DNA from: Leisingera thetidis | GTDB lineage: Bacteria; Pseudomonadota; Alphaproteobacteria; Rhodobacterales; Rhodobacteraceae | Direction of reading: 5' to 3' | Length of the DNA stretch: 64,000 nt | Assembly (NCBI RefSeq): GCF_025857195.1 | Contig: NZ_CP109787.1 | Location: 2,793,501 to 2,857,500 of the forward strand | In this document: piece by piece, positions 1 through 15,269 of the stretch | Layout: each line of letters begins with the position of its first letter | How positions within the stretch are numbered: position 1 is the stretch's first letter | Notes under the pieces: generated by a model | Database searches by the model: none | What the model saw: only the letters and a program-made list of their open reading frames with translations | What the model was told of the DNA's origin: nothing | Made by a program: the position numbers and the translations under genes

Positions 1-567
1 ATGGCCCAGCCCGCCAATCCCCAAAAGCAGGACATAACCGCCGGGATTGAGCAGTTTCGCGGCCTTCTTGGCGGCGCGGTAGGCGGTGATCCCGGCATCG
101 GCCATCGGCGCGACGCTCAGCGGTGTGATGCCGGTGTTCAGCTTGATGACCGAACGTTCGTTGGTCTTGAAATACTCAGCAAAGCCGCCATCCAGCCCGA
201 GACCCGGGAACTTGCCGTGGTCGCAGTACATGTCATGGCCATAGCGGCATTCCAGGCAGATGCCGCAGGCGTTGAACGGGTGGCAGATCACCGCGTCGCC
301 GGGTTTGACCGAGGTGACATTGCTGCCCACGTCCTCGACCCAGCCGGCGTTTTCATGGCCCATCACGTAGGGCAGCAGGTTGCCCTCGGTGTCCATGATG
401 TCCTTCCAGACGCCTTCGATGATGTGCAGGTCGGTGCGGCAGAGGCCCGCGGCGCCGACCTTGACGATCACCTCGTCCGCGGCCGTGATCGTGGGCGCGG
501 CGACGTCCTCGATCTTCAACTCGACATTCATGCCGGGGTCGTATTCGTAGAGTCTCGCTGCTTTCAT
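1..567 (-). CDS. adh: Zn-dependent alcohol dehydrogenase of the propane monooxygenase operon (partial, 3' end outside window)
   Basis: The first 189 codons of a medium-chain Zn-dependent alcohol dehydrogenase are present; the C-terminal half lies beyond the window start. Catalytic-zinc ligands are visible as Cys43 and the GHE motif (His71-Glu72). The structural-zinc cysteines are Cys101, Cys104, Cys107 and Cys115. The nucleotide-binding glycine motif GIGGLG sits at about residues 183-188, right at the edge. It is the last gene seen in the monooxygenase operon, 61 bp after the chaperonin stop. In homologous prm/mim operons this enzyme is thought to oxidise the alcohol made by the monooxygenase (for example propanol) with NAD(P). 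The substrate is inferred from context only. ATG at 567 gives the full family N-terminus. Confidence 0.9.
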   Translation of the reverse strand, partial: MKAARLYEYDPGMNVELKIEDVAAPTITAADEVIVKVGAAGLCRTDLHIIEGVWKDIMDTEGNLLPYVMGHENAGWVEDVGSNVTSVKPGDAVICHPFNACGICLECRYGHDMYCDHGKFPGLGLDGGFAEYFKTNERSVIKLNTGITPLSVAPMADAGITAYRAAKKAAKLLNPGGYVLLLGIGGLGH

Positions 568-628
568 GGTCTATGTCCTTTGCTCGGGAGAGGCCGGAAC
601 GCCCGGCCCCTCGGGTGTGGAACCGCGC

Positions 629-2260
629 TCAGGCGCGGCCCAGAAGCTCGGCACCGCCACCGCGGGCGGGGCCTTCGGTCGGGTCGGCCTCGCCTTCTTC
701 GAGGTCGCCGACCAGGGTTTCCGTGGTCAGGATCAGCGTCGCGACCGAGGCTGCGTTGACCAGCGCGCTGGCAGGCACACGGGCGGGATCGACGATGCCG
801 GACTCGAACATGTTGCCGTAGGTGCCGGTGGCGGCGTTGTAGCCGTGGCCCGGCGGGCCCTCGGCCACGGCGTGCGCCACGGCGGCCACGTCGGCCCCGG
901 CATTGCGGGCAATGCGGCGGACCGGTTCGGTCAGGATCGAACGCACTAGCTGGATGCCCTTGGCCACGTCGCCGAGCGCGTCGAGCGTGTCGAGGCAGCC
1001 GGAGATCTGCGCCAGCGCCGTACCGCCGCCTGCGACCACGCCATCCTCGGCTGCCGCCTGGACCGCACAAAGCGCATCCTCGATCAGCTGGATCGTGCGC
1101 TTCTGCTCGACCGGGGTGAAACCGCCTGCATAGATGATCGCGCTGCCGCCCGTGAGTTTCGACAGCCGCTCGCGCAGCTTGTCCTTCTCGATGTTCGGCG
1201 GGGCCACGTCATGCTGGCGCTGGACCTGGTTGCGGCGGGCGGTAATCGCCTCCGGATCGCCCTCGCCGCGCAGCACCGAGGTGCCGGATGCGTGTGAGCG
1301 GACCATTTCCGCCCCGCCCAGCTGCGCCAGCGTGACGGTCTCGATCTTCTTGCCCAGATCGCGGGCCAGAACCTCGCCGCCTGTCAGGATCGCAAGGTCG
1401 TCCATCATGGCGGAGCGCCAATGGCCGTATTCCGGCGGATGCACGATCAGGTATCTCCCCGCGCCGCCGTTCTCCAGCAGCTTGACCACCACCTCTGGCG
1501 CGATCTCTTCCGCGACGATCAGAAGCGGGCGGTTCTTGGCATTGGCAATCGAGATGGCGGAGTCCAGCATCTCGGGCTTCAAGATCTTCTGGTCTGTCAG
1601 CAGGATCAGCGGGTTGCGCAGCACCGCCTCCATGTGCTCGCGGTCGGTGACCATGTGGTGCGAGATGTAGCCACGCTCGAAAGACATGCCTTCGACCACG
1701 TCCATCGTGGTTTCAATGGTGACGCCGAAGTCGGCCGAGATGACGCCATCGCGGCCCACCCGGCGAAAGGCTTCGGCCACCAGCCCGCCCAGCTTGGGAT
1801 CAGTCGACGACACGCGCGCCACCGCCTCAAGGTACTCCGGGTGGTCGTCGCAATCGAGCGAGGAGGCATCTATCGCGTCGACCACCCGCGCAACCGCCAG
1901 GTCGATCCCCTTGCAGAGATCGACTGGCTTGACACCCTTATCGGTCAAATCCACGCCACGCTGGATCAGTGCGTTGGCCAGCACGATGGCGGTAGTCGTA
2001 CCGTCCCCCGCCACGTCATTTGTTTGCATCGAAACCTCGCGCACCACTTGGGCGCCCATGTTCTCGAAGCGGTCGTTGAGTTCGATCTCCGAGGCAATGC
2101 TGACCCCGTCGCGGGTCACCAGCGGGGTGCCCACCGGGCGGTCCACCATTGCATTCAGCCCCTTGGGCCCGAGCGTCGGTTCTACCGCTGCCGCAAGCCG
2201 CGCGACACCGCGGGCCAGACAGTTGCGGGCGGTCTTGCCGTGTACCATGAGTTTAGCCAT
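629..2260 (-). CDS. prmG: GroEL-like chaperonin dedicated to the monooxygenase operon
   Basis: A 543-residue Hsp60/GroEL-family protein. Visible family motifs are TLGPKG near the N-terminus, the ATP-site motif GDGTTTA and the VVAGGGTAL equatorial motif. The C-terminus lacks the Gly-Met repeat tail of housekeeping GroEL, and no groES precedes it. I chose ATG 2260 because GGAGG lies 5 nt upstream; an in-frame upstream ATG at 2284 has no comparable site. Established knowledge: in actinobacterial mim/prm operons a GroEL-like protein in this same position is needed to fold the hydroxylase large subunit. The same role is inferred here from identical gene order. It is almost certainly not the housekeeping chaperonin. 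Confidence 0.93.
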   Translation of the reverse strand: MAKLMVHGKTARNCLARGVARLAAAVEPTLGPKGLNAMVDRPVGTPLVTRDGVSIASEIELNDRFENMGAQVVREVSMQTNDVAGDGTTTAIVLANALIQRGVDLTDKGVKPVDLCKGIDLAVARVVDAIDASSLDCDDHPEYLEAVARVSSTDPKLGGLVAEAFRRVGRDGVISADFGVTIETTMDVVEGMSFERGYISHHMVTDREHMEAVLRNPLILLTDQKILKPEMLDSAISIANAKNRPLLIVAEEIAPEVVVKLLENGGAGRYLIVHPPEYGHWRSAMMDDLAILTGGEVLARDLGKKIETVTLAQLGGAEMVRSHASGTSVLRGEGDPEAITARRNQVQRQHDVAPPNIEKDKLRERLSKLTGGSAIIYAGGFTPVEQKRTIQLIEDALCAVQAAAEDGVVAGGGTALAQISGCLDTLDALGDVAKGIQLVRSILTEPVRRIARNAGADVAAVAHAVAEGPPGHGYNAATGTYGNMFESGIVDPARVPASALVNAASVATLILTTETLVGDLEEGEADPTEGPARGGGAELLGRA

Positions 2261-2326
2261 ATCTTCCTCCATCGGCCCAGACAAAAACCTGGGCGCTGTC
2301 CTAATTTCATATGATTTTTCAGTGAA

Positions 2327-3136
2327 TTACCCTCGCGCGGCGAGTTCTTCCCGAGGCGGCACGCGACCTTCGATGAAGTCGATCAGCGTCGGACCATCGG
2401 GCCCGATCTCGACTTCCTTGTAGCGCGTCTTGGCGAGCCCCCGGCATAGCGCCCCGTTGAACTCCATATTGATCCGCGTGCTGCGCAGACGGGTCAGATG
2501 CGCACCCAGATCCGCGGCCTCGATCGGCTGGCCGTCCCAGGTGGGAAAGGCCGGATCATCCGCCGCATAGGCCAGGCCCTGCGCCGCGAGAATGTCGAGG
2601 TAGCGCGGTTTCTGGCGCAGCTCTTCCTCGCCCTCGAAGCCGATCCGGCGCAGGTCGCCCAGCGTCATCGACACGATCTCGCCGGCGCTGTATCCGAGCC
2701 CCTGAAGGCCCAGCATCACGGTTTCCTGCCGCCGGTCGAAGGCCTTGGCGAGGAACTTCCCGGCCACGTCGTCAAGCCGCGCGCCATCGCAATACTCGGC
2801 GAAGACCTCGTGATAGGGCCGCCCGCTGTTGACGCCCTGGTTGACCTTGTCGCCGAAGCAGTGATCGTTCAGCTGCACCTCGGCCTCGTCGACCCAGGGC
2901 AGCATCATGACTTCCCTGCGGATGCCGAAGGCCATCAGGAAGGCGAAGTTGGGTGAGCACCAGTAGGTGGGGAGCCGAAACTCGACCCTCACCCTTATCT
3001 TTCTGGCTTGCGTCACCTCGATGCGCTCGACGAAGCCCATGTCGGTAATGGGCTCGTCAAGCTCCGGGTCCGTCACGGATTCGAGACGGTCCCAGACTTC
3101 CAGCTCGTGCACAGCGCTCAGGTTTTCGACACGCAT
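2327..3136 (-). CDS. MIP18/DUF59-domain protein of the monooxygenase operon, possible metallocluster-assembly factor
   Basis: A 269-residue protein. Residues about 10-100 look like the MIP18/DUF59 iron-sulfur assembly fold: DPEL near residue 23, ITDMGFV near 30, and a conserved-looking YWCSPNF with Cys60. The remaining ~170 residues are a longer C-terminal region that I do not recognise. ATG 3136 lies 4 nt after the amidohydrolase stop, so the genes are translationally close; an upstream extension to 3223 reads through the neighbour and was discarded. The gene always-next-to-GroEL position matches a conserved unknown gene of prm/mim operons. A role in maturing the diiron or 2Fe-2S centres is inference. 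Confidence 0.8.
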   Translation of the reverse strand: MRVENLSAVHELEVWDRLESVTDPELDEPITDMGFVERIEVTQARKIRVRVEFRLPTYWCSPNFAFLMAFGIRREVMMLPWVDEAEVQLNDHCFGDKVNQGVNSGRPYHEVFAEYCDGARLDDVAGKFLAKAFDRRQETVMLGLQGLGYSAGEIVSMTLGDLRRIGFEGEEELRQKPRYLDILAAQGLAYAADDPAFPTWDGQPIEAADLGAHLTRLRSTRINMEFNGALCRGLAKTRYKEVEIGPDGPTLIDFIEGRVPPREELAARG

Positions 3137-3140
3137 CGGA

Positions 3141-4166
3141 TCACTCCGCCGCGATCTGGACCGGAGCGCCGGCCAGTTGTGCCTTCTTCGCCTCGACATC
3201 GATGTCGTAGAGCCTGGCGGCATTGAGGCCGAGGATCTTCTCCTTGATCTCGTCGGTCAGCTGCACGCCGCCGCGTTCTGCCGAGATGTCCTCGGGGATC
3301 TGGTAGTCCCAGAACTTCTCGACCAGCCACCCAGGCGTCCAGATCGCATAGTCCGAGCCGAACAACAGCTTGTCTTCGCCGACCCACCACAGCAGTTCCG
3401 CAATCACCTCGCCGAAGTAGCGCGGGCGCGAATGGATGAAGGGCATCGCCACCGCCAGGCCGCCATAGACGTTGGTTTCCTGGGTCGCGATCCAGCAGAA
3501 ATCGTCGAGCCGCGGCAGGCCGCAATGTTCGATGATCCAGTTGAGGCCCTGGAAATCGGTGGCAGCGTGGTCGACGTCATGGACGTCGAAAGCATCCTTC
3601 GACAGCGGGATGATCGTCGGACCCTTGTGGACATGAATGTTCCTGATGCCCAGCTTCTCGCACAGCTCGAAGCACTTGTAGGCCGCCGGATCGTTCAGCG
3701 CCCAGCCCTTGCTGTCGCCGTTCCACTCGGCCGTGTACATCTTCACGCCCTTGATATCAAAGGTTTCCTTCATGTAGTGGATGTAATCCAGCGCCTTCTC
3801 GCCATCGCGGGGATCGAAGCTGCCGTTGACGATGAAGCGCTCCGGGTGGCGTTTGGCCATCGACGACGAGCGTTCGATCGAAGAAAACCCGTTCTTGTAG
3901 AAGTCGTTCAGATAGGTCGACTGGATGATCGCCATGTCGTCGGGCCCGTCGACAAACAGGTCGCGGTAGATGTCGTCCTCGGAATACTTCTCGAACCTGG
4001 CCTTCTCCCAGAGCTGGTCCTCGGGGCTCAGGTTGGTGTGATAGGCATAGAAGCAGTCGATGAACTGCTTGCCGTGCACGTTCGCCTGGTTCTCGGGGCT
4101 GCCGTCCCAGAAATGGGTGTGCCCGTCGAGAACGAAAATCTCTTTTCCGTCCGGTGTCTTGAACAT
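3141..4166 (-). CDS. Amidohydrolase-2 (ACMSD-like) family protein of the monooxygenase operon
   Basis: A 341-residue TIM-barrel metal-dependent hydrolase. Metal ligands expected for the family are visible: HTH at residues 16-18, VHKG with His178/His180, HCG with His214 and a C-terminal FGSDY with Asp272. The gene follows prmD after a 12-bp hairpin and is 4 nt upstream of the DUF59 gene. Homologues occupy the same slot in actinobacterial propane monooxygenase operons, but to my knowledge their reaction is not established. They may process an oxidation product or act as an accessory factor. Operon membership is strong; substrate is unknown. Confidence 0.85.
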   Translation of the reverse strand: MFKTPDGKEIFVLDGHTHFWDGSPENQANVHGKQFIDCFYAYHTNLSPEDQLWEKARFEKYSEDDIYRDLFVDGPDDMAIIQSTYLNDFYKNGFSSIERSSSMAKRHPERFIVNGSFDPRDGEKALDYIHYMKETFDIKGVKMYTAEWNGDSKGWALNDPAAYKCFELCEKLGIRNIHVHKGPTIIPLSKDAFDVHDVDHAATDFQGLNWIIEHCGLPRLDDFCWIATQETNVYGGLAVAMPFIHSRPRYFGEVIAELLWWVGEDKLLFGSDYAIWTPGWLVEKFWDYQIPEDISAERGGVQLTDEIKEKILGLNAARLYDIDVEAKKAQLAGAPVQIAAE

Positions 4167-4199
4167 GGTGTCCTCCCTTGCGTTGGCTGAGATATTGGG

Positions 4200-4236
4200 G
4201 GCTCCGGGGCCTAGCGGGTGCAGCGGCCCCGGAGCC
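4200..4236 (-). terminator. Perfect 12-bp intercistronic hairpin after prmD
   Basis: GGCTCCGGGGCC (4200-4211) and its exact complement (4225-4236) enclose a 13-nt loop between prmD and the amidohydrolase gene. No U-run follows on the minus strand. It is more likely an RNA-stability/processing or attenuating element than a full terminator. Confidence 0.6.
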
Positions 4237-4248
4237 GTCAGAGGTCGA

Positions 4249-4623
4249 TCAGATGTATTCCATGACCTCGTTCATATCGCCGAACAGGATCACGGTATCG
4301 TCGTCGACCCGGACCATCCGCCCGTAGTGGGTCGAGGTGTTGACCTCGAAGGTCTCGGCGGTCATCTCGCGGCCCAGGTATTCGGTGATCTCGCTCATCT
4401 GGAAGATCAGCTTGCCCTCGCCATCGATCCGGATGGTCGCCGGGTTGTAGGTGATCGTGACATTGGGGTCGTTTTCCTCCATGAACTCGGCGATGGCGCG
4501 GGCCTCGACGCTGTCGTTCATGGTGACGCCGCACTGGTGCGAGACCTCGCGTGAGGTCAGGTCGATGTCCTTCATCGATTTGAAGATGTTCTGGTTGGAC
4601 GCATTGCGCGCTGTGCTAGACAT
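4249..4623 (-). CDS. prmD: Propane monooxygenase coupling (regulatory) protein
   Basis: A 124-residue protein of the MmoB/DmpM coupling-protein family. It has no cofactor motif and shows the typical VGVTMNDSVEARAIAEFM-like core (here CGVTMNDSVEAR near residue 31), ITYNPATIRIDGEGKL and a conserved acidic C-terminus. Coupling proteins bind the hydroxylase to gate substrate, electron and oxygen access to the diiron centre. It lies 23 bp after prmC and before a strong hairpin, closing the prmABCD core. Confidence 0.92.
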   Translation of the reverse strand: MSSTARNASNQNIFKSMKDIDLTSREVSHQCGVTMNDSVEARAIAEFMEENDPNVTITYNPATIRIDGEGKLIFQMSEITEYLGREMTAETFEVNTSTHYGRMVRVDDDTVILFGDMNEVMEYI

Positions 4624-4646
4624 GGTTCCAGTTCCTTTTCAGAGAG

Positions 4647-5708
4647 TTACGACAGGCCCAGCTCGGCGATGATTCTGCCAAGGCGCTCTTGCGAGACGGC
4701 TTTGACATCTTCGAAGGAGACCGGCTTGGAATGCGGCTGCGACCAGATCGGCTGAAGCGCGGCAGTGGCCTTTTCAGCCAGGCCGCCGTGCTTGGCGAGC
4801 CAGCCCTTGAAGAGCGCGCGGTTGTGTTCGCCATGCTCTTCGTCGTGCGCCAGCAGGTAGATCAGGTCGACGGTGTTCGCGAGGTTGCGCTCATAGTCAG
4901 CTTCGGCGGCGGAAATCACCGGCGGTGTGATGAAGTCGTTGTTGGCCGCGGCCGCCTGCATGAAGAAGCCCGAGCGGATCAGCTCGCCCACCATCGGCTC
5001 AAAGACGATGTTGATGGCGAAATACTGCTCGAGGTAGTCTTCCGAGCCCATAATCGTTTCGATCGCCTCGCGGCAGGGCTGCCAGATCGGATCTTCCAGC
5101 CACATCTTCTTGCCCAGGGTGTCATCCCAGCCGTCGATGTCCATGCCGATCTCGGCCAGGTAGAGCGTGATGTCCTGGGTCAGGCGCATCTTGTAGGAGG
5201 AATTGGTCAGCGTGGCGTTGTTGATCATCTGGGTATAGCCGTAGCGCTGCGCCTGCATGAGCGAGGTGCCGAGGCCGAATTCCGCGTGTTTCCATGCGCC
5301 CAGATGTTTCTGGAGGATGGTTTGCCAGTTCTTGTCGAAGACCTTGTGCGCGCCGGCCTTGCGGGCGTTCGAGATCACGTTCTGCACCATGGTCTCGATC
5401 TTCGACTGGCGCTGGTAGTGGGTCCGCTCCCATTCCTGGTCGGGCGCGCGGAAGGCGTGCCAGTTTGACGACAGCGCTGCGGTGTTGTCCTTCCGGTAGG
5501 CGCCGCCGCCCTTGCCGCCCTCGAACTCGATGATCCAGTTCTGGATCAGGTAGCGTTCGGGATCGGGCTGGACGTCGACGGTGACGTCCTCGTAGTGGGT
5601 CGCCCGCTTGCCGCGCGGTTCGAAGTAATTGTACTTGCGGCTCTTGGAGCCGATGAATTCCGCGGCACCGGCGGCACCGGATCCGACTGAGCTGGATGTT
5701 GCTGGCAT
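4647..5708 (-). CDS. prmC: Propane monooxygenase hydroxylase small (beta) subunit
   Basis: A 353-residue ferritin-like hydroxylase beta subunit. The N-terminal KYNYFEPRG and the segment with LGAWKHAEFGL are typical of soluble diiron monooxygenase beta subunits, which have the fold but not the metal ligands. It pairs with PrmA in an alpha-beta hydroxylase dimer. It sits between the reductase (45 bp upstream) and coupling protein (23 bp downstream). ATG 5708 is preceded by a GGGAGG-like site. Confidence 0.93.
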   Translation of the reverse strand: MPATSSSVGSGAAGAAEFIGSKSRKYNYFEPRGKRATHYEDVTVDVQPDPERYLIQNWIIEFEGGKGGGAYRKDNTAALSSNWHAFRAPDQEWERTHYQRQSKIETMVQNVISNARKAGAHKVFDKNWQTILQKHLGAWKHAEFGLGTSLMQAQRYGYTQMINNATLTNSSYKMRLTQDITLYLAEIGMDIDGWDDTLGKKMWLEDPIWQPCREAIETIMGSEDYLEQYFAINIVFEPMVGELIRSGFFMQAAAANNDFITPPVISAAEADYERNLANTVDLIYLLAHDEEHGEHNRALFKGWLAKHGGLAEKATAALQPIWSQPHSKPVSFEDVKAVSQERLGRIIAELGLS

Positions 5709-5744
5709 GATTGCCTCCCTTGGGTTTCGTTCACGTCACGAGCG

Positions 5745-5766
5745 TTCGGGCCGTCAGTGGCCCGAA
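5745..5766 (-). other. Hairpin spanning the prmB stop codon
   Basis: TTCGGGCC (5745-5752) and GGCCCGAA (5759-5766) form a perfect 8-bp stem. The 6-nt loop contains the prmB stop codon. Its position between prmB and prmC suggests an mRNA-processing or stability element. Confidence 0.5.
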
Positions 5767-6812
5767 GAACCGGACGTGGGCGTGAACTTGTCGTAGAAGA
5801 TGCGGTCGGTATCGAAGTCGTGCATGAAGAGCACCGGCGTCAGCGCGTCGATCATCGGCGGCGGGCCGCAGGCATAGACATCGCCGTCGCCGTCGATCCC
5901 CAGCTCGCGCAGGTGCGTGTCGACGTATTCATGCACGAAGCCGCGCGCGCCGGTCCAACCGTTGCCCTCTTCCTCGTGGCTGAGCACGGGGATGAATTCG
6001 ACATTGGGATGGGCGCCGGTGATGGCGCTGATCTCGTCCAGCTTGAACAGATCGTCCTGCGACCGTGCACCGTAGTAGAAGTAGATCGGGCGATCCTCGC
6101 CGCTGGCCACCTGGTCATTCAGGATTGACCAGACCGGCGACATGCCCGAGCCGGCGCCGACGAGGATCACGGGTCCTTGCCGCTCTTCGCGTCGGAAGCA
6201 CATGCCGTAGGGGCCTTCGATGCTGACTTCTGCTCCGGCCTTGATGCCGCCGTCGTCGAGTTCGTTGCTGAACCGTCCGTCGGGGTATTTCTTGATGATG
6301 AAGCCGAGTTTTTGGGTTTCGCTCGGCGGATTTGCCATGGAGAACGAGCGTGTAATCTCCTCCCCTTCTTCGGTTTTGACCGTGATGTCGACATATTGAC
6401 CCGCCCAGAATTTCAAAGGCGCATCCAGCTCGATCTGGACTCCGCGAATGTCATGGGTGAGCTTCTGAAAATCGGTGATCCGGCCGGTGTACTGCTTGAC
6501 CGGGATGCTCTTGGACAGCACCTCTTCGTCGTAATTCAGCAGTTCGATCTCGATATCGCTGAGCGCCAGAGTGCGGCACATCAGAATATGACCGCCGTCC
6601 TTTTCCATGTCGTTGAGCGCGAAGGTCGAATAGTTCTCCATCTCGGACTCGCCGTCGAGCTGGACGCACTTGCAGGCCGAGCATTGGCCCTCCTTGCAGC
6701 CATGCGGCAGCGCGATGCCCTGACGAAAGGCGGCGTCAAGGATGTATTCACCGTCCTCGACCTCGAACTCCACGCCGACCGGCTCAAGGCGCACGTTGTA
6801 GATGTCCGTCAT
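5754..6812 (-). CDS. prmB: Propane monooxygenase reductase
   Basis: A 352-residue reductase with three recognisable modules. There is an N-terminal plant-type 2Fe-2S ferredoxin domain with Cys39, Cys44, Cys47 and Cys79. An FAD-binding barrel follows with RSFSMANPP. The NAD(P)-binding domain has GAGSGMSP and a C-terminal YACGPPPMI. It moves electrons from NAD(P)H through FAD and 2Fe-2S to the PrmAC diiron site. It lies 72 bp after prmA, across a GC hairpin. Second position after the large subunit is typical of group 5 monooxygenases. Confidence 0.95.
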   Translation of the reverse strand: MTDIYNVRLEPVGVEFEVEDGEYILDAAFRQGIALPHGCKEGQCSACKCVQLDGESEMENYSTFALNDMEKDGGHILMCRTLALSDIEIELLNYDEEVLSKSIPVKQYTGRITDFQKLTHDIRGVQIELDAPLKFWAGQYVDITVKTEEGEEITRSFSMANPPSETQKLGFIIKKYPDGRFSNELDDGGIKAGAEVSIEGPYGMCFRREERQGPVILVGAGSGMSPVWSILNDQVASGEDRPIYFYYGARSQDDLFKLDEISAITGAHPNVEFIPVLSHEEEGNGWTGARGFVHEYVDTHLRELGIDGDGDVYACGPPPMIDALTPVLFMHDFDTDRIFYDKFTPTSGSSGH

Positions 6813-6848
6813 TGTTGTTTCCTCCCTCTCCCGTGCTTGCGGGGGGTG

Positions 6849-6872
6849 CCGGGGCCGCTCTCGCGGCCCCGG
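6849..6872 (-). other. Perfect 10-bp prmA-prmB intercistronic hairpin with GAGA tetraloop
   Basis: CCGGGGCCGC (6849-6858) and its exact complement (6863-6872) form a stem whose loop reads GAGA on the transcribed strand, a GNRA-type tetraloop. There is no U-tract. It probably protects the prmA 3' end, favouring more large-subunit mRNA. Confidence 0.6.
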
Positions 6873-6884
6873 CGATGGTCGTGA

Positions 6885-8549
6885 TCAGTTGCAGGGATTG
6901 ATGGTGAAGCCTGCGCGATACTCGGCGATGTGCGCCTCGCGATCGCTGGGCGACATGGCGCGCAGCGCTTTCAGCGGCGAGGCCAGGGTGTGGCCGCGGA
7001 CATGCTCCAGCTTCCACATGTCCTTGTTGTCGAACCGCAGGTGCGGCTGCGGCACCAGGGTTTCGCCGTCTTCGCGGACAAAGTTGAGATCCTTGATGGC
7101 ATCCGCCAGGTCCCAGCCGTCATAGACGGTTTCCCATTCACGCTTGCCCGAGAACTTGCCCATCGCCGGGGTCGGCCGGCCCTGGTATTCGTCCGAGAAA
7201 GCCTCGACCGCGGTCCAGCGATCCAGCTCATGGGCGAAGGTGTGCAGCTCGCCGTCAATCTCGTCGACCACCATGTCTTCGCGGATCAGGCAGGGCACGA
7301 GGCAGGACCAGCAGCGGTGCGGATAGACGTATCCGGTGTCCTCGTTGAAGGTGACGACCTTCTCGCCCGGCTTCGACAGTTTCGCGTACCACTTCCAGAA
7401 CTCGCCGAACTCGGCGTACCAGCCCGGGTACTTGTGCTCGAACCACTCGAAGTCCTTCTCGGTCTGGGCTTCGATGCGCCAGAAGTTGACGGGCCAGCCG
7501 ACGGCAAAGAACTGGGCGACCTTGTGGACGTAGTTCTTTTCGGTGATCCGTTTCCAGGCTTCCTGGACGTCGTCGTGGTGCACCTTCACGCCGTACTTTT
7601 CGAGCGGCAGCATGTAGGTCCGGTAATAGTCCTCGAAGATCCACCGGTGCCACATCTCCGCATAGGATTCCTTTTCCTTGTCGCGGTTGGTGGTGCCGTA
7701 TTCGATGAACGTGCCGATGGCGGCGTCAACGATGGCGTGGTTCTGCCAGAAGGCGTAGCGCAGGTCGCGTTCCAGCAGAAGGTGGTTCTCCGGCTCCTTC
7801 AGCGCGGCCATCAGAAGCGAATGGCCGTTGCCGATGTGGCGGCTTTCGTCCGACTGGACCGAGAGGAACACCGTGGGCAGCGCATAGTCGCCATTGCGCG
7901 CCGCTTCCGAGGGCATGGCCACGAAGAGCGTGTTGGTGAAGGCGGTTTCCGCCACCACGGTCAGGTACATGCAGGCGGCGGTCATGGTGTCGCCGGTGAT
8001 GAACCCTTCGCCGAACTGGCGGCCGATGGTGGTGGCATAGCACTTGCCGAAGGCCTCTTCGGTGATGTCGAAGCCCGCCGGGTCGATGTAGTTTTCCATG
8101 TACCACTTCTTCAGGTTCATCTGGATCGTGGAGTGACGGAATTCATCGACCATCTGCATGGTGAAGCCGGTGCGCAGGTCCTCGCCCGGTGACAGGCGCG
8201 CCACCATGGCCATCGACCGCGCGGCCGAGATTTCGGGGAACGGGATGATTGCCAGAAACAGCTTCATCCATTCGATCCAGCGGGGCTCCACGTTGCGGAA
8301 CATGTCGCCGCGCAGCGCCGCGTCGAGCGCGCCGTAAACACGGTTGTCCTTTTCCTCTTCCATCGGGAAGTAGGAGCGCAGGACCTGTTTCATCGGGTCG
8401 CGCGGGGCCTTGGTGATCTTGTAGTCAGTCGGGAAGGTGGCGGCTTCCTGGACGTAGGACGGATTCCATCCGAGATCGGAGATCTTCTTGGTGGCCTCCC
8501 CTACCGAGATACCACGTTGGGACGTGATCTTGTTGAGCGTCAAAGTCAT
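6885..8549 (-). CDS. prmA: Propane monooxygenase hydroxylase large (alpha) subunit
   Basis: A 554-residue soluble diiron monooxygenase alpha subunit. All six diiron ligands are visible with the exact spacing of methane monooxygenase MmoX (each numbered 8 lower): Glu106, Glu136, His139 (DEFRH), Glu201, Glu235 and His238 (DESRH). ATG 8549 was chosen because AGGAGG lies 8 nt upstream; the open frame runs up to 8807 but that part is unlike the family. It is first gene of the operon, with a 590-bp upstream region carrying a sigma-54 promoter. Order A-reductase-small subunit-coupling protein points to the propane/group 5 class. The true alkane or ether substrate cannot be read from sequence. Confidence 0.95.
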   Translation of the reverse strand: MTLTLNKITSQRGISVGEATKKISDLGWNPSYVQEAATFPTDYKITKAPRDPMKQVLRSYFPMEEEKDNRVYGALDAALRGDMFRNVEPRWIEWMKLFLAIIPFPEISAARSMAMVARLSPGEDLRTGFTMQMVDEFRHSTIQMNLKKWYMENYIDPAGFDITEEAFGKCYATTIGRQFGEGFITGDTMTAACMYLTVVAETAFTNTLFVAMPSEAARNGDYALPTVFLSVQSDESRHIGNGHSLLMAALKEPENHLLLERDLRYAFWQNHAIVDAAIGTFIEYGTTNRDKEKESYAEMWHRWIFEDYYRTYMLPLEKYGVKVHHDDVQEAWKRITEKNYVHKVAQFFAVGWPVNFWRIEAQTEKDFEWFEHKYPGWYAEFGEFWKWYAKLSKPGEKVVTFNEDTGYVYPHRCWSCLVPCLIREDMVVDEIDGELHTFAHELDRWTAVEAFSDEYQGRPTPAMGKFSGKREWETVYDGWDLADAIKDLNFVREDGETLVPQPHLRFDNKDMWKLEHVRGHTLASPLKALRAMSPSDREAHIAEYRAGFTINPCN

Positions 8550-8763
8550 GCCATGAGCCTCCTTAAAGCTCTGGGGCCAGTCGCCCGGCGCCCGGTTGGC
8601 GGCTTTTGCCGTTTCGGTTTGGCGCCCGCTTGAGGCACCGGTTCTCGGCAAAGGTTGAGAAGGTCGACGCGCCCGCTGCATTGCGGCGGCTGCTGGTCTC
8701 TCTCCCTGTCCTTCGTTCTTTGAGCGTCCTGTCCGGGCGCTGGCGTCTTGTGGTTCTCTTCTG

Positions 8764-8778
8764 GCAAGGCCGGTTCCA
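8764..8778 (-). promoter_or_regulatory. Sigma-54 (-24/-12) promoter for the prm operon
   Basis: On the minus strand the sequence reads TGGAACCGGCCTTGC. It matches the consensus TGGCAC-N5-TTGC with the invariant GG and GC elements at exactly the right spacing and one change in the first element. It lies about 215 nt upstream of prmA, and an rpoN gene lies immediately upstream on the same strand. Confidence 0.75.
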
Positions 8779-8917
8779 GAATTCGGCAGACGCTCAAAGC
8801 ATCGCAAAAAAGTCTATTATCTGACTGATTTTGCGTAATATTTTTCGATGAATTTTTCGCGGGACGCTTTGCTTAAGAACGAGGCCGGGCGAAGCATACG
8901 GACAGGTTGTCGCATAA

Positions 8918-8957
8918 CGTTACAATCGCCGTTCCAGGGATTTTACGCTTCGTTACA
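8918..8957 (-). promoter_or_regulatory. Two CGTTACA boxes, candidate activator (enhancer) sites
   Basis: CGTTACA occurs at 8918-8924 and 8951-8957, TGTAACG on the transcribed strand. The copies are offset by exactly 33 bp (about three helical turns). They lie about 145-185 bp upstream of the sigma-54 promoter, the usual place for enhancer-binding protein sites. The first copy is also half of an imperfect inverted repeat, TGTCGC-N5-GTTACA. Confidence 0.5.
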
Positions 8958-9140
8958 CCTGCTGAAACACCCGCGGTATACATCCCGGATCGCGCCCCCC
9001 GAAAGCACGGCCCCGGTCAGCGCAAATCTCTGAAAGATATCGGACTTTCTGCACTGCGGCATCGCCGGAACCATGCGGGTCGGCGACTGCATCCGGATGT
9101 CCGCTTCTGTGGCGTCATACCGCGCCGAGGGGTTGCGGCG

Positions 9141-10385
9141 TCAGGCCCGCAGCCGGCGCTTCGCGGCGGCGTGGATACCGATGTCCTGCCGGTAATTCGA
9201 CACGACACGGCGCGACACCGCGATCCCTTCGGCCTGCAGAATGGCCGTCAGCCGCCGGTCGGACAGCGGCTTCTTCGGGTCTTCGCCGGCCAGCAGCGCC
9301 CGGATGCGCGCCTGGACCTGCGGCTTGGATTGGGTCGTCCGGGCTGACGCCGTGCCGGTGAACAGGGTGCGCGCAAGAACAATGCCGTTCGGCCCTTCGA
9401 TCAGCAAACCGTTCAGCACCCGGCTGACGGTGCTGAGGTGAAATCCGGTTTCCAGTGCAATTTCGGACAGCGTCATCGGAGCCAGAGCGCGGTCGCCAAG
9501 GCGGAAATAGGCGCCCTGGCGCTTCACGATTTCCCCGACCACCTGTTTCAGGGCGGACGCGCGCGCATGGAGCGCATGTTTCAGCGCCCGCGCCTTGGCC
9601 AGCGCTTCTGAGGCCTCGCTTGCCCTGCCGCCGCGCGGAAGATTGATGACCTCGATATCCCCTTGCCACGACGACAGGAATTCGATTTCCCAGCCCTCGC
9701 CCGACGGCGTGATCCGGACATCGGGTTCACGTGTGAGCGTCGGATCCGAGACAAAGGCGCTGCCTGGTTTCGGGTCGAGCCGGCGGAGCAGCGCGAGGCA
9801 GTCCTGTACCCTATCCCGCGGCAGTCCGGTCGCCCGGACCAGTGCTGCCGGGCCGCCGCTTTCCAGCGCAGGAAGATGATCCAGCACCAGCTCCATGTCC
9901 TCGGTCATCGCGTCCCGATCCTCCAGCTGCAACCGCAGGCAGTCCTTGAGATCGCGCGCGAACAACCCCACCGGATCGACCCGTTTCTGAACCACCCGCA
10001 ATGCGGTTTCCACCAACTCCCCACTCAGTTCCAAGCTTTCGGCAATCGCCGCAGGCGCGCGTCCCAGCCAGCCCGACGGCTCAAGTTCCGCAATCAGCGC
10101 GGTGATGAGTTTTTCCATCAACCCGCCCTGGCCGATCAGCCCGGCCAGTTCGCGGAACACATGGTCATAAAGGCTGTTTGCCTGTTCCACCGCGGTCAAT
10201 TCCAGAACATCCGTGGCGCTCATCCCGGCGGCCCGCCGCTGGCGCAAAACCAGCATCGGGTTCTCCTGCGCCTCTGCGGCCAGATGCTCATCGAGTTCGG
10301 CCGCGGACATCTGCAAAAGGGTAACGATCTGACCCAGCCGGAACACCTGGCTGTGTTTCGCACGCAGCTGAGTCTTCAAAGGCAT
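9141..10385 (-). CDS. rpoN: RNA polymerase sigma-54 factor (paralogue linked to prm operon)
   Basis: A 414-residue sigma-54. The Gln/Leu-rich activator-interacting region I is at the N-terminus (VFRLGQIVTLLQMS, then AEAQENPML). The core-binding region and DNA-binding HTH (SEIALETGFHLSTVSRVLNG) follow, and the C-terminal RpoN box is SRRVVSNYRQDIGI (ARRTVAKYRE-like). ATG 10385 has AGGAGG 7 nt upstream; the longer open frame reads into the divergent neighbour. It lies on the same strand as prm. It is not in the usual rpoN-hpf-ptsN neighbourhood, so it is probably an extra, operon-dedicated copy. No cognate enhancer-binding protein is seen inside the window. Confidence 0.93.
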   Translation of the reverse strand: MPLKTQLRAKHSQVFRLGQIVTLLQMSAAELDEHLAAEAQENPMLVLRQRRAAGMSATDVLELTAVEQANSLYDHVFRELAGLIGQGGLMEKLITALIAELEPSGWLGRAPAAIAESLELSGELVETALRVVQKRVDPVGLFARDLKDCLRLQLEDRDAMTEDMELVLDHLPALESGGPAALVRATGLPRDRVQDCLALLRRLDPKPGSAFVSDPTLTREPDVRITPSGEGWEIEFLSSWQGDIEVINLPRGGRASEASEALAKARALKHALHARASALKQVVGEIVKRQGAYFRLGDRALAPMTLSEIALETGFHLSTVSRVLNGLLIEGPNGIVLARTLFTGTASARTTQSKPQVQARIRALLAGEDPKKPLSDRRLTAILQAEGIAVSRRVVSNYRQDIGIHAAAKRRLRA

Positions 10386-10480
10386 GGTGCCGCCTCCTGT
10401 CCGGACAGCCGACAAAAAGCTGGCCCCGAGGCCAGGCGCCGCGCTATCCTGAGATAAAGAAACCATTGAAAAGCAGTAAG

Positions 10481-11434
10481 ATGAGCCCGCATCTCCCCAT
10501 CGGTGGTATTGTCCCGCTCGACGGAACCGCGCCGGAACTGTCCTATCCGGGCCATTCGCCCCAGCTTCTGGCGCGAGTGCGGCAACTCTGGTCCGCCGCC
10601 GGTCTGGATTTCGACCATGGCTGGCGCGCGGGCGTGCGCAGCCTGCCGGGGTTCCGCGCTCTGCCCCGGGTCGAAACGGCTCCGGCCAGCACCGATGTCG
10701 ACCTGGTGTTTGTCTATGATCAGGCGGTGCTCTGGGTTCGGGCCCTGCACGAGGCCGCGGCCATCGGACGTCAGCACCAGACCGGCGGGCTGACCGCGGC
10801 GCAATGGCACGGGCTGGCGGCGCTCTCTGCCCGGTTGACCGAACAGCTGGCAGCCTTGCGGCTTCTGGCGCTGACTGACCTGCCGATGCCCGCGATGCAG
10901 ATCGCCCGGTCGCTGTCGGAAGACGTGGACATGGCGCTGGTGATCCTGATCCGCCGCAAGCTGGCGGAGCGTTTCGCCGCCTGCCGCAGCGCCGAGGAGG
11001 CCAGCGATTTCTGGCGCCGCCACATCGCCGGGGGCCGCGCCTTCCGCGCGATTTCCGAAAAGCTTTATGCGGTGGGCATCGACCATTCCGACGACACCGA
11101 TTACGCCAAGTGGCGAAAGTCGGTGCTGACCACGCTGGGCGCGGCGGTCCACAGCAATGCGCTGAACACTCAATTGCCGAAACGCCCCCATGGCGAGATC
11201 CTGCTGAATGGCGACAGTCTGCATTTCGCGACCTTCCGCATTCATGAGCTTTGCGCCTATGCACAGCTCGTTGAGCCTGAGTTGACGGATGCGCTTTGGG
11301 CGGCCGCCAATGCTACAAGGCCGACCAGCCCGCTTGCCGAGCTGGCCGCGCCGCTAAGCGGTGTACTCGTAAACCAGATTCAGTGCCTATCGTCACCGGC
11401 AACCGCGCCACGCGAGAGGGCCAAACATCACTAG
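10481..11434 (+). CDS. Hypothetical protein divergent from rpoN
   Basis: A 317-residue mostly helical protein that I do not recognise. ATG 10481 lies 95 bp from the divergent rpoN start, so the two could share a control region. Visible are a Trp/Arg-rich middle (DFWRRHIAGGRAFRAISEKL) and Leu/Ala-rich helices. There is no signal peptide or membrane segment. The stop overlaps the stop of the convergent 59-residue gene in the tetranucleotide CTAG. The reading frame is clean and GC-rich, so it is likely real. Confidence 0.7.
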   Translation: MSPHLPIGGIVPLDGTAPELSYPGHSPQLLARVRQLWSAAGLDFDHGWRAGVRSLPGFRALPRVETAPASTDVDLVFVYDQAVLWVRALHEAAAIGRQHQTGGLTAAQWHGLAALSARLTEQLAALRLLALTDLPMPAMQIARSLSEDVDMALVILIRRKLAERFAACRSAEEASDFWRRHIAGGRAFRAISEKLYAVGIDHSDDTDYAKWRKSVLTTLGAAVHSNALNTQLPKRPHGEILLNGDSLHFATFRIHELCAYAQLVEPELTDALWAAANATRPTSPLAELAAPLSGVLVNQIQCLSSPATAPRERAKHH

Positions 11435-11610
11435 TGCTTGACATCCTCTGTCTTACTGAGACGGTTTTCCGAGACCCAACGCGCGGCCAGAACCAGCGCT
11501 CCAGCGGCAAAGTCCTTGCCGTGCTCCTCGACCATCTCGCCGGCAACCTTAGCCAGTTTTTGAAAATAACGGTCCTTGCTTTGCTCTTCAGCGGACAGTG
11601 CTTGTGACAT
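11431..11610 (-). CDS. Small conserved-looking hypothetical protein (59 aa)
   Basis: A short frame beginning MSQALSAEEQSKDRYF and ending TEDVKH. It is charged and helical, with a central segment AGALVLAARWV. ATG 11610 lies 17 bp after the propeller-gene stop, preceded by GAAGGAAG. It therefore looks like the third gene of the operon with the coiled-coil and WD40-like genes. Function unknown. Confidence 0.6.
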   Translation of the reverse strand: MSQALSAEEQSKDRYFQKLAKVAGEMVEEHGKDFAAGALVLAARWVSENRLSKTEDVKH

Positions 11611-11627
11611 GTGTCTTCTTCCTTCAA

Positions 11628-12764
11628 TTATTTGAACATGTTGCTGGGGAAGGTGGCGATCGACAGGCTGCCGTCCTCCCCGCCAATGGCAAGATGCGCG
11701 CCGTCGTCAGACCAGGCCAGCGCAGTAACCGACGCGCCAGTGCCTTCGCGCACCAGCATTTCATCCGGGTGCCCGATGCGGCACAGCATGACGAGGCCGG
11801 TGCCATAGCTCACCGCACAGAGATCCCGCTTGGGATGCAACGCCACCCGGTCGACAATCGTCAGCCCCGGCTTTCCGGTCTCGATCGGCGCGCCGGCGTT
11901 GCCGCCGAACGGCAGGTCCGGCAAGGACCACCCCACAACCCGAAACGCGCCCGAGGCGATGACCGCCTTGGCCTTGCCGCTGAACTGCGCAGACAGAACC
12001 GGCGCCGGGAAATCGACGATCCGGTCCGATGCCCCCGCGGTCACATCGGCCAGCAGCACCGCCTTGTCTTCGCAGCCCGCCACCAGCCAGCGCTGGCAGG
12101 GCGACCATTCGAGGCACAGCACCTTGCCGTCGCAGGCGATCTGCGCCTGGCAGGTCATGTCTTCGACACGGACGATGCTCACCTGCCCCGCGCCCCAGCA
12201 GGCCAACAGGGATTCATCGCCAGAAACTGCAATCCGGGCAACGCTGTGATCCAGCTTGATACCTGCCACCTCAGCCCCGCCGGTTTCGGCCACCAAGGCC
12301 AGGCGTGTCCCATGCGCGACGGCCACCTGACCAGAGCGCGAAAGGGCCGCCAGCGCAGTGACCGCGTCCTGGCGCGCTGCTTTCATTGCCAGGGTCTGGC
12401 CTCGCGCGGTTGCGCGCCACAGGACACCCGTCCCGGCATGGGGAAAGGCAAAGCCCTGATCGCCAAGCCGGCACAGTGGCACATCGGCGCGCGCCACGGG
12501 CGCTTCGCTGAACACCGGTGGCGGGAGCGGCTTGGACCGGGGCCGGATGCTCGACCGCCCGGTATCGGCCTCGACCCGTACCCGGCTGTCCGGGCTCTCG
12601 GCGTCCTGGACCGGGACAAAGGCCATTTGGCCATCGGCCAGTTGCGCGGCCAATGACGTCCCCTTGGCATTGAACTGAAGCGCGCGCACCTCGGTTTTCA
12701 CGTCCCATGTGCGGGCAATCAGGTCGAAAAGCGTCATCGCTTGCGGCGGCTGGTGCTGTGTCAT
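11628..12764 (-). CDS. WD40-like beta-propeller protein
   Basis: A 378-residue protein built of repeated beta-strand units ending in hydrophobic-Asp/Gly patterns, for example VTALAWSDDGAHLAIGG near the C-terminus and VLCLEWSPCQRWLVAG in the middle. These are typical of WD40/quinoprotein propellers. No signal peptide is seen, so it is probably a cytoplasmic interaction scaffold. Its ATG directly abuts the stop of the coiled-coil gene (TGA-ATG), showing an operon. A second possible start is Met10. Partner and role unknown. Confidence 0.7.
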   Translation of the reverse strand: MTQHQPPQAMTLFDLIARTWDVKTEVRALQFNAKGTSLAAQLADGQMAFVPVQDAESPDSRVRVEADTGRSSIRPRSKPLPPPVFSEAPVARADVPLCRLGDQGFAFPHAGTGVLWRATARGQTLAMKAARQDAVTALAALSRSGQVAVAHGTRLALVAETGGAEVAGIKLDHSVARIAVSGDESLLACWGAGQVSIVRVEDMTCQAQIACDGKVLCLEWSPCQRWLVAGCEDKAVLLADVTAGASDRIVDFPAPVLSAQFSGKAKAVIASGAFRVVGWSLPDLPFGGNAGAPIETGKPGLTIVDRVALHPKRDLCAVSYGTGLVMLCRIGHPDEMLVREGTGASVTALAWSDDGAHLAIGGEDGSLSIATFPSNMFK

Positions 12765-13055
12765 TCAGCTTTGCTCCTTCATCGCGGCTTCCAGTTCCTC
12801 GTCCAGAGCGGATAGCCTGGCCTCTAGCCGGTTGATCGTTTCAGTGTTTTCTTCGAGCGCCGCGTCGTTCTGCGCCTGCGCGTCCTCGTGGGCGTGGTCT
12901 TCGACCCCGTCCCGCGCATCCTTCATGTCGAGTACCATCAGGCCGCTGGCTTTCTGGTTCAGCCGCAGCTGTTCGGTATTGGCCTGGGCGATCGCCTGGA
13001 TGGTCTTCACCCGGTCCATAAGGATATCGCCGGTTTTGCGTGATTGACCTGTCAT
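12765..13055 (-). CDS. Small coiled-coil hypothetical protein (96 aa)
   Basis: The protein starts MTGQSRKTGD. The C-terminal half is a clear heptad coiled coil (NTETINRLEARLSALDEELEAAMKE-like). ATG 13055 is preceded by AGGGGG; a longer frame to 13100 lacks a better site. It is first in a three-gene operon with the propeller and the 59-residue protein. It diverges, 50 bp apart, from another small gene. Function unknown. Confidence 0.65.
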   Translation of the reverse strand: MTGQSRKTGDILMDRVKTIQAIAQANTEQLRLNQKASGLMVLDMKDARDGVEDHAHEDAQAQNDAALEENTETINRLEARLSALDEELEAAMKEQS

Positions 13056-13105
13056 GAACACCCCCTGTAAACCGGCGCCGGTTTTTGCAGCGAAAGGCAA
13101 ACCCG

Positions 13106-13378
13106 ATGACCGACCCCGCCGATCTGCGCTTTTTCCGGGCGCTGAAGGATGTTTGCAGCGCCGCCGAAGGTGTCGATCGAAGCTGCCGCGACGCCATCAA
13201 CCGCGCGCTGGAAACCGGCGATCCTCTGGACATGCAGGCGGCGCGCAAGGCCGTTGAACTGCTGGACGGTCCTCTCAAGAGCGACCTTCTCCGGCAGGTC
13301 CATCTGCGCATGGTCAGCGATCTTTCCGCGATCTGGGACTCCCTGCCCGGGGCGCCGGGCGCCGGTCGGCCGAACTGA
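13106..13378 (+). CDS. Small helical hypothetical protein (90 aa)
   Basis: MTDPADLRFF start with an AAAGG site about 7 nt upstream. It is predicted almost all-helical, without membrane segments. It is divergent from the coiled-coil gene. I do not recognise the family, but the codon use fits the neighbours. Confidence 0.5.
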   Translation: MTDPADLRFFRALKDVCSAAEGVDRSCRDAINRALETGDPLDMQAARKAVELLDGPLKSDLLRQVHLRMVSDLSAIWDSLPGAPGAGRPN

Positions 13379-13719
13379 AGCCCCCAGTGATCTGTTGCGC
13401 TGCCTGCTTGAGATTTTCTGCATTGGCCACCCTCCCACGGGCCCCGTTTTTCCGGGTGGCACACAGGGTATCCGAGCGGCACGTTGACGCAATCAGAAAG
13501 GACCGGAAGCCGCGTTTTTCTGCGGTTTCCGCGGGCCGTTCCGAAAATGTGTAAAATTGCGTTACGTTTTGCGAGCGGCTTTGTAACGGCCTGTTTCAAA
13601 GCCGGTTTCGCCGCGCCGCAGAAGATTTTTCCGAACATGATAAGCATCCGAATCACCGGCTTGATTCGAGCACCGGATCTGCGCTCATCTGGCAGGGAAC
13701 GGCAGCCGGAAAACGGGGC
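13379..13719. other. Intergenic region with one hairpin
   Basis: No gene is supported in these 341 bases. A 10-bp hairpin with one G-T wobble lies at 13504-13513/13522-13531 around a T-rich loop. The part from 13530 to 13640 is locally more AT-rich and may hold the promoter of the acetyltransferase gene. Confidence 0.4.
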
Positions 13720-14556: not shown

Positions 14557-14915
14557 GTTGCTCCGGGGCTGAATAGTGTTTCAACTCCGGCAAGTCAGAC
14601 TGTAATTCCCGAAACGTATCGCAACAGATCCGCGGCGGCTTGGCGCTGAAATTCTGCCACGCGCCCGCGCTTCTGGAAATTATTTCGCATAAAAAATCAA
14701 TTAAAATCAGACTGTTTTTCCCCTCCAGAATCTGAACCGCCCAAGCCGCCGCAATCTGGAACCGTGATTGCATGACGTTTTCCGTAATCACGCGCGTTTC
14801 ACGGGTTCGGGGCAAGACTTGGTCACGCATTGGAACGCAGGGATATGGGTGCCCCGGCCATGTTTTACCGCTTCCGCATCAGGAGACGCCGCGTGCGGTA
14901 TCGGAGGATCGAAGA
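14557..14915. other. Intergenic region, partly AT-rich
   Basis: No convincing gene in 359 bases. The stretch 14675-14720 is strongly AT-rich. I see no clear regulatory motif. Confidence 0.4.
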
Positions 14916-15269
14916 ATGATGTATCAACCTGACCTAGTCGCGGAAACCGGTCCCTTGCAGACCCGGTGGCGCGGACCCGAAGACAGCAATCGTCTCGATT
15001 GCGAAACCGGGGTTCTGCTGCGCAGGGTTCTGGAACCGGTATTTCGGCAATCCACCAGTTGGGCCGGCCTGCGCCGCCGGCTTGCGGGCAAAGGGTTCGA
15101 CTTAGGATTCAACATGGGCCGGCTGGTTCTGAACAACCGTGAGAGCGGCGCCCGTATCTGTTCCTGCAAGTTCCTGGGGTATCCGTTGGCAACGCTTAGC
15201 GAGCGGCTGGGCCGGGCCAAGGTCGCCGCGATCCGCGACGGCAGTGGCCTTGGCCTGCTGCTGGACTGA
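14916..15269 (+). CDS. Hypothetical protein (117 aa)
   Basis: ATG 14916 is preceded by GGAGG at 8 nt. The protein has an Arg-rich middle and a segment with LRRRLAGKGFDLGFNMGRLVL followed by SCKFLGYPLATLSERLGRAKV. That layout recalls small domains found at the end of relaxase-type proteins, but this is only a resemblance. No signal peptide or membrane span. It stands alone, convergent with pgi. Confidence 0.6.
   Translation: MMYQPDLVAETGPLQTRWRGPEDSNRLDCETGVLLRRVLEPVFRQSTSWAGLRRRLAGKGFDLGFNMGRLVLNNRESGARICSCKFLGYPLATLSERLGRAKVAAIRDGSGLGLLLD

Follow-up and report, generated by a model that had tools for sequence, protein, structure and literature searches.

A prm-linked sigma-54 gene and a candidate variant −24/−12 promoter in Leisingera thetidis

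Why does a gene cluster for a diiron monooxygenase in Leisingera thetidis have a gene for sigma-54 (rpoN) directly upstream of it, and does that sigma factor serve the cluster or the cell at large? The locus lies at the start of the window analysed here, by which we mean the whole stretch of 64,000 nucleotides at bases 2,793,501-2,857,500 of contig C1 (4.36 Mb), in a genome of 5.47 Mb and eight contigs that is rated 100% complete. On the minus strand the gene order is rpoN, prmA, reductase, beta subunit, coupling protein, amidohydrolase, Fe-S assembly protein, groEL and alcohol dehydrogenase (adh), which confirms the eight prm genes, in order and on one strand downstream of rpoN, that an earlier note on this DNA had listed; the eighth (adh) crosses the edge of the window. 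The picture that we favour, and consider quite likely, is of a self-contained prm cluster with a private sigma-54 circuit made up of the linked RpoN, a variant promoter and a GAF-domain activator.

The sigma-54 gene and the activators of the genome

The Pfam domains PF04552 and PF00309 each gave one match in the whole 5.47 Mb. The genes ptsN and hpf lie at 4.25 Mb of C1; lptB precedes the hpf frame by 70 bp without an intervening rpoN, and a second rpoN at hpf/ptsN is ruled out, the genome search having found the window copy only and the slot being empty. The window rpoN does not stand in the housekeeping order lptB-rpoN-hpf-ptsN; the earlier note was right to place it outside its usual context but wrong to call it a paralogue. 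The protein passes the cut-offs of all three Pfam sigma-54 domains, PF00309 (AID), PF04963 (core-binding) and PF04552 (DNA-binding), and its score against the NCBIfam equivalog model TIGR02395 is 260.1 bits, under the cut-off of 277.35. Judged by these profiles it is a divergent sigma-54 that falls outside the standard RpoN equivalogs.

The cluster is larger than the earlier note had stated. It continues beyond the window start with genes for a glyoxalase-like protein, a gluconate-dehydrogenase-like small protein (without a Pfam match, and labelled after its positional counterpart in annotated relatives), a GMC oxidoreductase, katG and a 170-aa open reading frame (ORF), and reaches a 704-aa GAF-type activator (locus L015). 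Six proteins in the genome match Sigma54_activat strongly: that of the cluster carries the sigma-54 loop GAFTGA, one on contig C5 has GAFPGA and four have no loop, namely NtrC and NtrX (labels given from gene order and likeness) and two others. A codon-level scan of the whole genome for GAFTGA returned four hits, of which a single one lies in an AAA+ frame. A two-piece activator match at C1:1385151-1385555, read in part only, breaks at the loop region, and the two that were read of six lower activator matches are other AAA+ proteins. On this reading of the proteins, this cluster holds both the sigma-54 and the only activator found that is expected to be able to use it. The earlier note had regarded a sole rpoN in the genome as grounds for rejecting dedication; the copy is indeed the sole one found, yet dedication is not refuted, because the only GAFTGA activator found also sits in the cluster. 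Fifteen prm genomes with one rpoN over the cut-off likewise had one GAFTGA protein each, always on the rpoN contig, a count based on 30 of the 72 activator matches, namely those with loci, which were the ones inspected. The GAFPGA activator of the present genome lies at C5:94387-94887, and GAFPGA proteins are also found in G406, G421 and G423.

The narrowly missed TIGR02395 cut-off would also fit an rpoN that is a decaying leftover, with prm read by sigma-70 and an activator freed from sigma-54. The NtrC of Rhodobacterales is reported to be loop-less and that of Rhodobacter capsulatus to work with sigma-70, according to the available part of PMC10274813, which lends that idea some precedent. 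We nevertheless regard it as very improbable, because the three Pfam domains pass their cut-offs, the 44 linked copies described below have frames of >400 aa, the activator of the cluster retains GAFTGA and the candidate promoter site recurs in related loci.

Linkage and shared history of rpoN and prm

Among 395 genomes sampled from the family Rhodobacteraceae, PF04552 was found in 145 at E ≤ 0.001 and over its cut-off in 135. The co-occurrence that the earlier note had proposed to look for was found: all 14 genomes with a full-length prmA (threshold E ≤ 1e-60) have an rpoN over the cut-off, compared with 121 of the 381 others (Fisher p 1.9e-7, kinship ignored). In nine of the 14 the rpoN immediately precedes prmA on the same strand, in two (G046, G318) it is nearby and divergent, and in three it is unlinked; in unlinked G117 and G076 it lies at lptB-hpf-ptsN. 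In G219 a broken prmA stands beside a truncated sigma-54 frame that has the core-binding domain only and gives no PF04552 match.

Linkage was also judged in 80 named prm loci, within a stretch of at most 10 kb on each side. The two samples overlap (G292 and G399, for example, have equal coordinates), and their counts are not independent. An rpoN is present in 44 of the 80, next to prmA on the same strand in 28, on the same strand further off in two and divergent in 14, and all 44 belong, by their titles, to Rhodobacterales or to unclassed alphaproteobacterial metagenome-assembled genomes (MAGs). Within the stretches judged, rpoN was not seen in the other 36, which comprise 28 rhizobial-type loci (Mesorhizobium, Rhizobium, Labrys and others), four of Roseibium, those of Limibaculum and Granulosicoccus, and two that are cut by a contig end (L086, L108).

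A genome-wide search for rpoN covered 49 of the 80 named genomes, 28 with a linked rpoN and 21 without. The canonical slot is occupied in one of the 28, compared with 18 of the 21 (Fisher p 2e-9). The other 27 linked-rpoN genomes have lptB and hpf side by side, and in the 18 the rpoN is flanked by hpf or ptsN; one of these 18 is G411 (locus L086), in which the contig ends 570 bp before prmA and linkage is not visible. The remaining unlinked genomes are two of Labrys, with an rpoN and no detected hpf, and the MAG L122, in which no rpoN was found. No further strong rpoN match was found in ten of the 16 same-strand genomes, one of the ten, G399, having a marginal one. The linked rpoN looks like an add-on for Rhodobacterales hosts without a housekeeping copy, and the counts suggest a simple rule for the genomes sampled: prm is mostly accompanied by an rpoN where the housekeeping copy has been lost, and lacks one where that copy is present. 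As a separate observation, the canonical-slot rpoN is very divergent in L168, L169, L170 and L217, which scored 309-353 bits against a home-made RpoN profile, compared with about 430-490 for most others.

In a tree of 86 RpoNs, built by a quick method with supports from the Shimodaira-Hasegawa-like approximate likelihood ratio test (SH-aLRT), the 24 same-strand prm RpoNs, including that of the window, make up one side of a branch with support 100, so that the prm-linked copies on the same strand do cluster, a point on which the earlier note had suggested a tree. A set with support 92 takes in every prm-linked row plus L198, whose protein is that of L110, and the canonical RpoNs group with one other row at 100. 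The prm-linked RpoN of the Cereibacter-like genome G046 groups with that of the window (support 92). Both marks of a dedicated RpoN of the Cereibacter sphaeroides type, linkage to the client and a tree group of its own, were thus found here. With lptB-hpf-ptsN as host marker, partial Mantel tests of RpoN against prm gave r values of 0.72 in the 16 same-strand genomes and 0.89 in 12 others (p 0.0005, such p-values being lenient for related sequences), and those of RpoN against the marker, given prm, were −0.17 and −0.08; uncorrected for prm, the latter correlations were 0.23 (p 0.08) and 0.47 (p 0.004). RpoN distances therefore track prm, and not the host marker when prm is allowed for.

Eight plasmids were examined from 71 records with a PrmA match. 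Three of them, all from Rhodobacterales, carry both prm and rpoN: p-SCP4 of Ponticoccus alexandrii, p2 of Gemmobacter fulvus and pAMI4 of Paracoccus aminophilus. No rpoN was seen in the stretch opened of the other five, from Caballeronia, Methylocella, Bradyrhizobium, Azospirillum and Aminobacter, whose host chromosomes were not searched. The single tree group, the co-variation with prm and the plasmids carrying both support the operon-dedicated sigma-54 of the earlier note; its idea of a transferable package holds for these Rhodobacterales plasmids but is not general, rpoN having been unseen in 36 of the 80 loci.

The RpoN box and the candidate prmA promoter

The RpoN box, which binds the −24 element (as stated in the available part of PMC7057263), reads SRRVVSNYR in the window protein and not the standard ARRTVAKYR. 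Residue 4 of the box is V, M, I or A in all 30 same-strand rows and Thr in all 72 other rows, among which L198 repeats L110 and the two from Labrys count as canonical although no hpf was detected. When the window RpoN was taken together with its 119 nearest homologues (of 260), the same residue was V in 111, I in four, M in four and A in one; the box of one V row is SHRVVSNYR.

The 28 same-strand loci and the window were compared upstream of prmA, and in 27 of these 29 the sequence CTGGAAC-N5-TTGC, or a close variant, lies 190-290 bp before the gene; the exceptions are L084, with TGGCAC, and L091, without a clean site. In the window the candidate site falls within an upstream extension of the prmA frame. 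We took the ATG at 8549 as the prmA start, which leaves a gap of 591 bp to rpoN; the frame stays open as far upstream as a TTG at 8807. In the rhizobial-type loci the base at −23 before prmA is C in all 28, and 22 of them attain the top consensus score. Box and base were compared in 41 of the 45 linked rows (L091, L096, L103 and L105 were dropped for lack of a strict site): V, I or M occurs with A at −23 in 27 loci, Thr with C in 12, Thr with T in one and Ala with C in one. We infer that residue 4 of the box reads the base at −23, and the linked sigma has probably changed its specificity, the box Thr having given way to V, I or M and the prmA promoter having TGGAAC, not TGGCAC. As regards the choice of sites, the top-scoring one in the window (8937-8921, score 11.9) was dropped in favour of that at 8779-8763, because only the latter is placed as in the relatives, and in L081 a site at 261 was chosen over a higher-scoring one at 302.

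A different variation was seen in the −12 element, which is CTGC rather than TTGC at the prmA promoter of L107, L110-L112, L115, L118 and L126. The RpoNs of six of these seven loci (not L110) have STVGRV in place of STVSRV-like sequences in the −12-binding helix-turn-helix, a change of Ser to Gly.

In the circuit that we propose, the linked RpoN would bring RNA polymerase to the variant −24/−12 promoter before prmA, and the GAF-domain activator encoded at the other end of the cluster, with substrate or product as its presumed signal, would open the complex via its GAFTGA loop. Most prm-bearing Rhodobacterales tested are without a housekeeping rpoN, and the NtrC and NtrX of the present genome are without the sigma-54 loop, so that prm would be readable only with its own sigma-54. 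Free of other clients, sigma and promoter may then have drifted together, from Thr to Val, Ile or Met in the box and from C to A at −23. A linked RpoN would make prm independent of the host sigma-54, in support of the earlier suggestion that the operon can be read regardless of the host sigma pool and, if true, the cluster could be switched on in hosts having lost the standard sigma-54.

A number of observations weigh against this circuit. G391 has prm but only another type of RpoN, with none linked in the stretch examined (the contig ends 5 kb upstream of prmA); G409 (Pararhodobacter aggregans) has a canonical-slot rpoN as well as the linked one; and six of the 16 same-strand genomes (G397, G402, G403, G408, G409 and G410) have one or two further strong rpoN matches. 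The prmA site is weak by consensus score, the same 17 bases reaching 11.3 of 20.3 in L067 with a shuffle P of 0.05, a strict promoter site is absent from L091, L096, L103 and L105, and rpoN itself showed no match to the strict variant pattern upstream. L084, with an Ala box, has C at −23 (TGGCAC), and Pseudovibrio L086 and Roseibium L088 have T (TGGTAC). Roseibium L094 and L098 have TGGAAT, with A at −23, but no linked rpoN and a canonical Thr-box RpoN. Finally, the box and −23 traits change together, but only twice on the tree, which is too few for a test.

The last two of these points would also be expected if the box and −23 changes were neutral marks of one lineage, with canonical promoters still read and specificity unaltered, and we regard this as a real possibility, although a somewhat doubtful one. 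Both features persist while identity to the window RpoN drops to about 48%, and V, I and M each occur with A. Altered specificity rather than neutral change is also favoured by the consensus scores, which reach their maximum in 22 of the 28 rhizobial-type loci, by the fit to the consensus of the prm promoters in G117 and G076, two genomes of the same family with a canonical RpoN, and by the binding of −24 by the RpoN box in the part of PMC7057263 available.

The variant promoter does not appear to define a large regulon, which we ruled out because TGGAAC-N5-TTGC[AC] matched the genome six times, compared with four in a reversed control; two of the six are in this cluster and three others lie inside mechanical reading frames. 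A second variant-type candidate is kept as CAATCTGGAACCG..ATTGCA, an island of conservation, in L067 and L070 and, together with the 117-aa ORF downstream, is a possible further member of the regulon. That site would equally suit an ordinary general sigma-54 that stands beside prm by chance and serves other promoters too, as would the finding of no other sigma-54 in the genome and the chance that the GAFPGA activator on C5 might still work with the window RpoN. However, a linkage repeated in 44 of 80 prm loci, a tree group of its own, a single GAFTGA activator found and six variant-promoter matches genome-wide, two of them in the cluster, make a general sigma factor improbable in our view, and favour the private circuit.

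Relation to known systems and gene content of the locus

RpoNs linked to a client are already known from Cereibacter (Rhodobacter) sphaeroides. Within the literature searched, novelty lies in prm as the client and in the altered −24 element, since the open-licence part of it gave no report of a prm-linked RpoN or an altered −24 site (Domenzain 2011 may mention the gene context). C. sphaeroides also has several sigma-54s, RpoN1-RpoN4, of which those studied are each tied to one activator and client set, and RpoN1 and RpoN2 differ in reading promoter position −11 (available parts of PMC11999139 and PMC7277832). RpoN1 serves nif, RpoN2 fla1 and RpoN3, with the REC-type activator AprX, xrpA, and no information is available on RpoN4, according to the part of PMC11999139 consulted, a paper that lists deletions of rpoN4 and of RSWS8N_04525. 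The prm-linked RpoN of the window is unlike these in being the sole sigma-54 found, in that the co-varying site is the −24 element with the RpoN box, and in having prm as its client.

The Cereibacter-like genome G046 has four rpoN genes, beside nifU/nifS-like genes (L151), flhB (L152), a rhodanese/pyridine-nucleotide/hydantoinase group (L153) and prm (L154). An activator of REC type with GSFTGA was found in all four genomes searched for having an L153-type RpoN (that of G375 was assigned by score alone, not by tree, and Pfam was used to test for REC in two genomes); G391, whose sole RpoN is of this type, is one of the four. No such activator was seen among 30 activator matches read in 15 prm-type-only genomes. 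Because the GSFTGA activator tracks the L153-type RpoN, L153 is likely to be RpoN3 and, by elimination, the prm-linked L154 RpoN4 of C. sphaeroides. The prm-side activator of G046 is of GAF type, has GAFTGA and is 47% identical to that of the window's cluster. To our mind the chances are evenly balanced that the window RpoN is a naturally orthogonal sigma-54, belonging to a transferable cluster with its own activator, with a box retuned to TGGAAC and a host regulon of about one operon, and that the same family would be the RpoN4 of C. sphaeroides, transcribing prm with the GAF-type activator at the cluster end. The role of that orphan RpoN4 becomes directly testable, and the sigma-54 of the locus, paired in nature with an altered −24 promoter, could be used to ask which RpoN-box residue reads which base. 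L153, L159, L161 and L196 form one tree branch of another Rhodobacteraceae RpoN type, probably the RpoN3 of Cereibacter, and the rpoN of L153 and L159 adjoins rhodanese (MnmH-like), SelD-like and hydantoinase-like genes.

Another diiron monooxygenase, the soluble methane monooxygenase (sMMO) of Methylosinus trichosporium OB3b, is reportedly regulated by rpoN, mmoR and mmoG, a finding attributed to Stafford in 2003. Its operon resembles prm in being read by sigma-54, with a sigma-54 activator and a GroEL-like protein, and the sMMO activator is of GAF type in Methylocella and Methyloferula (available part of PMC5874634); it differs in that the enzyme acts on methane and that the promoter, as given in the portion of the source available, is YTGGCACGrNNNTTGCW. 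The prm clusters of rhizobia, Methylocella, Azospirillum and Caballeronia share the prmABCD core order and a nearby sigma-54 activator, with accessory genes that vary, but have no rpoN in the stretches seen, and the 28 rhizobial-type loci are of the TGGCAC type.

In PrmA the two ExxH motifs are EFRH (residue 136) and ESRH (residue 235), and two such diiron motifs with the order alpha, reductase, beta and coupling protein are those of a group V soluble diiron monooxygenase (prmABCD). The protein is 76% identical to that of Methylocella tundrae and 64% to a relative on a Rhodococcus plasmid, its best match of solved structure being the alpha chains of methane monooxygenase (1.2e-61); the coupling protein scores under the MimD model cut-off (98.7 vs 150). 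These sequence likenesses point to a propane-type, group V-like diiron monooxygenase, propane being the presumed substrate. Signs of an island were sought at the locus and nothing telling was found: there is one tRNA-Ser at 47.5 kb, and the G+C content is 62.8% in bases 1-14772 vs 61.9% in the rest.

Table 1. Features of the prm locus, in window coordinates unless a contig is given.
Feature	Position	Strand	Remarks
adh, zinc alcohol dehydrogenase	1..567	-	runs past window start (L015:18025-19068)
groEL of prm cluster	629..2260	-	
Fe-S assembly protein, SufT-like	2327..3136	-	
Amidohydrolase, Amidohydro_2	3141..4166	-	
Coupling/effector protein, MmoB/DmpM, MimD-like	4249..4623	-	
Hydroxylase beta subunit, MmoY-like	4647..5708	-	
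Reductase, 2Fe-2S/FAD, MmoC-like	5754..6812	-	
prmA, diiron hydroxylase alpha subunit, 554 aa	6885..8549	-	
Candidate -24/-12 promoter of prmA, CTGGAACCGGCCTTGCC	8763..8779	-	231 bp before prmA start; related loci have similar sites at a similar distance
rpoN, 414 aa	9141..10385	-	only sigma-54 gene found in genome; Pfam domains, genome search
Conserved 317-aa protein	10481..11434	+	divergent neighbour of rpoN; no Pfam match
WD40 beta-propeller protein, 378 aa	11628..12764	-	
Small ORF, about 85 aa	12765..13019	-	directly upstream of WD40 gene; matched in 35/84 loci
Small ORF, 97 aa	13085..13378	+	divergent from WD40 gene pair; matched in 36/84 loci
Second variant-type candidate promoter, CTGGAACCGTGATTGCA	14756..14772	+	conserved in L067 and L070
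117-aa ORF	14916..15269	+	downstream of second site; seen in L067, not in examined part of L070
Activator, GAF + Sigma54_activat + HTH_8, 704 aa	C1:2785299-2787413		6.1 kb beyond window edge

Upstream of rpoN lie the genes of the 317-aa protein and the WD40 protein and two small ORFs, which are like-placed in related loci. Of the 84 related loci examined, 82 have the WD40 gene beside prm (as a fragment in one), across rhizobia, Rhodobacterales and a Caballeronia plasmid, and the product of this gene may be part of the monooxygenase system. Members of the 317-aa family adjoin prm-linked rpoN genes and also occur in Roseibium and Tepidamorphus prm loci in which rpoN was not seen. The gene for the 317-aa protein, the WD40 pair and rpoN form a block that is inverted between two arrangements of the locus.

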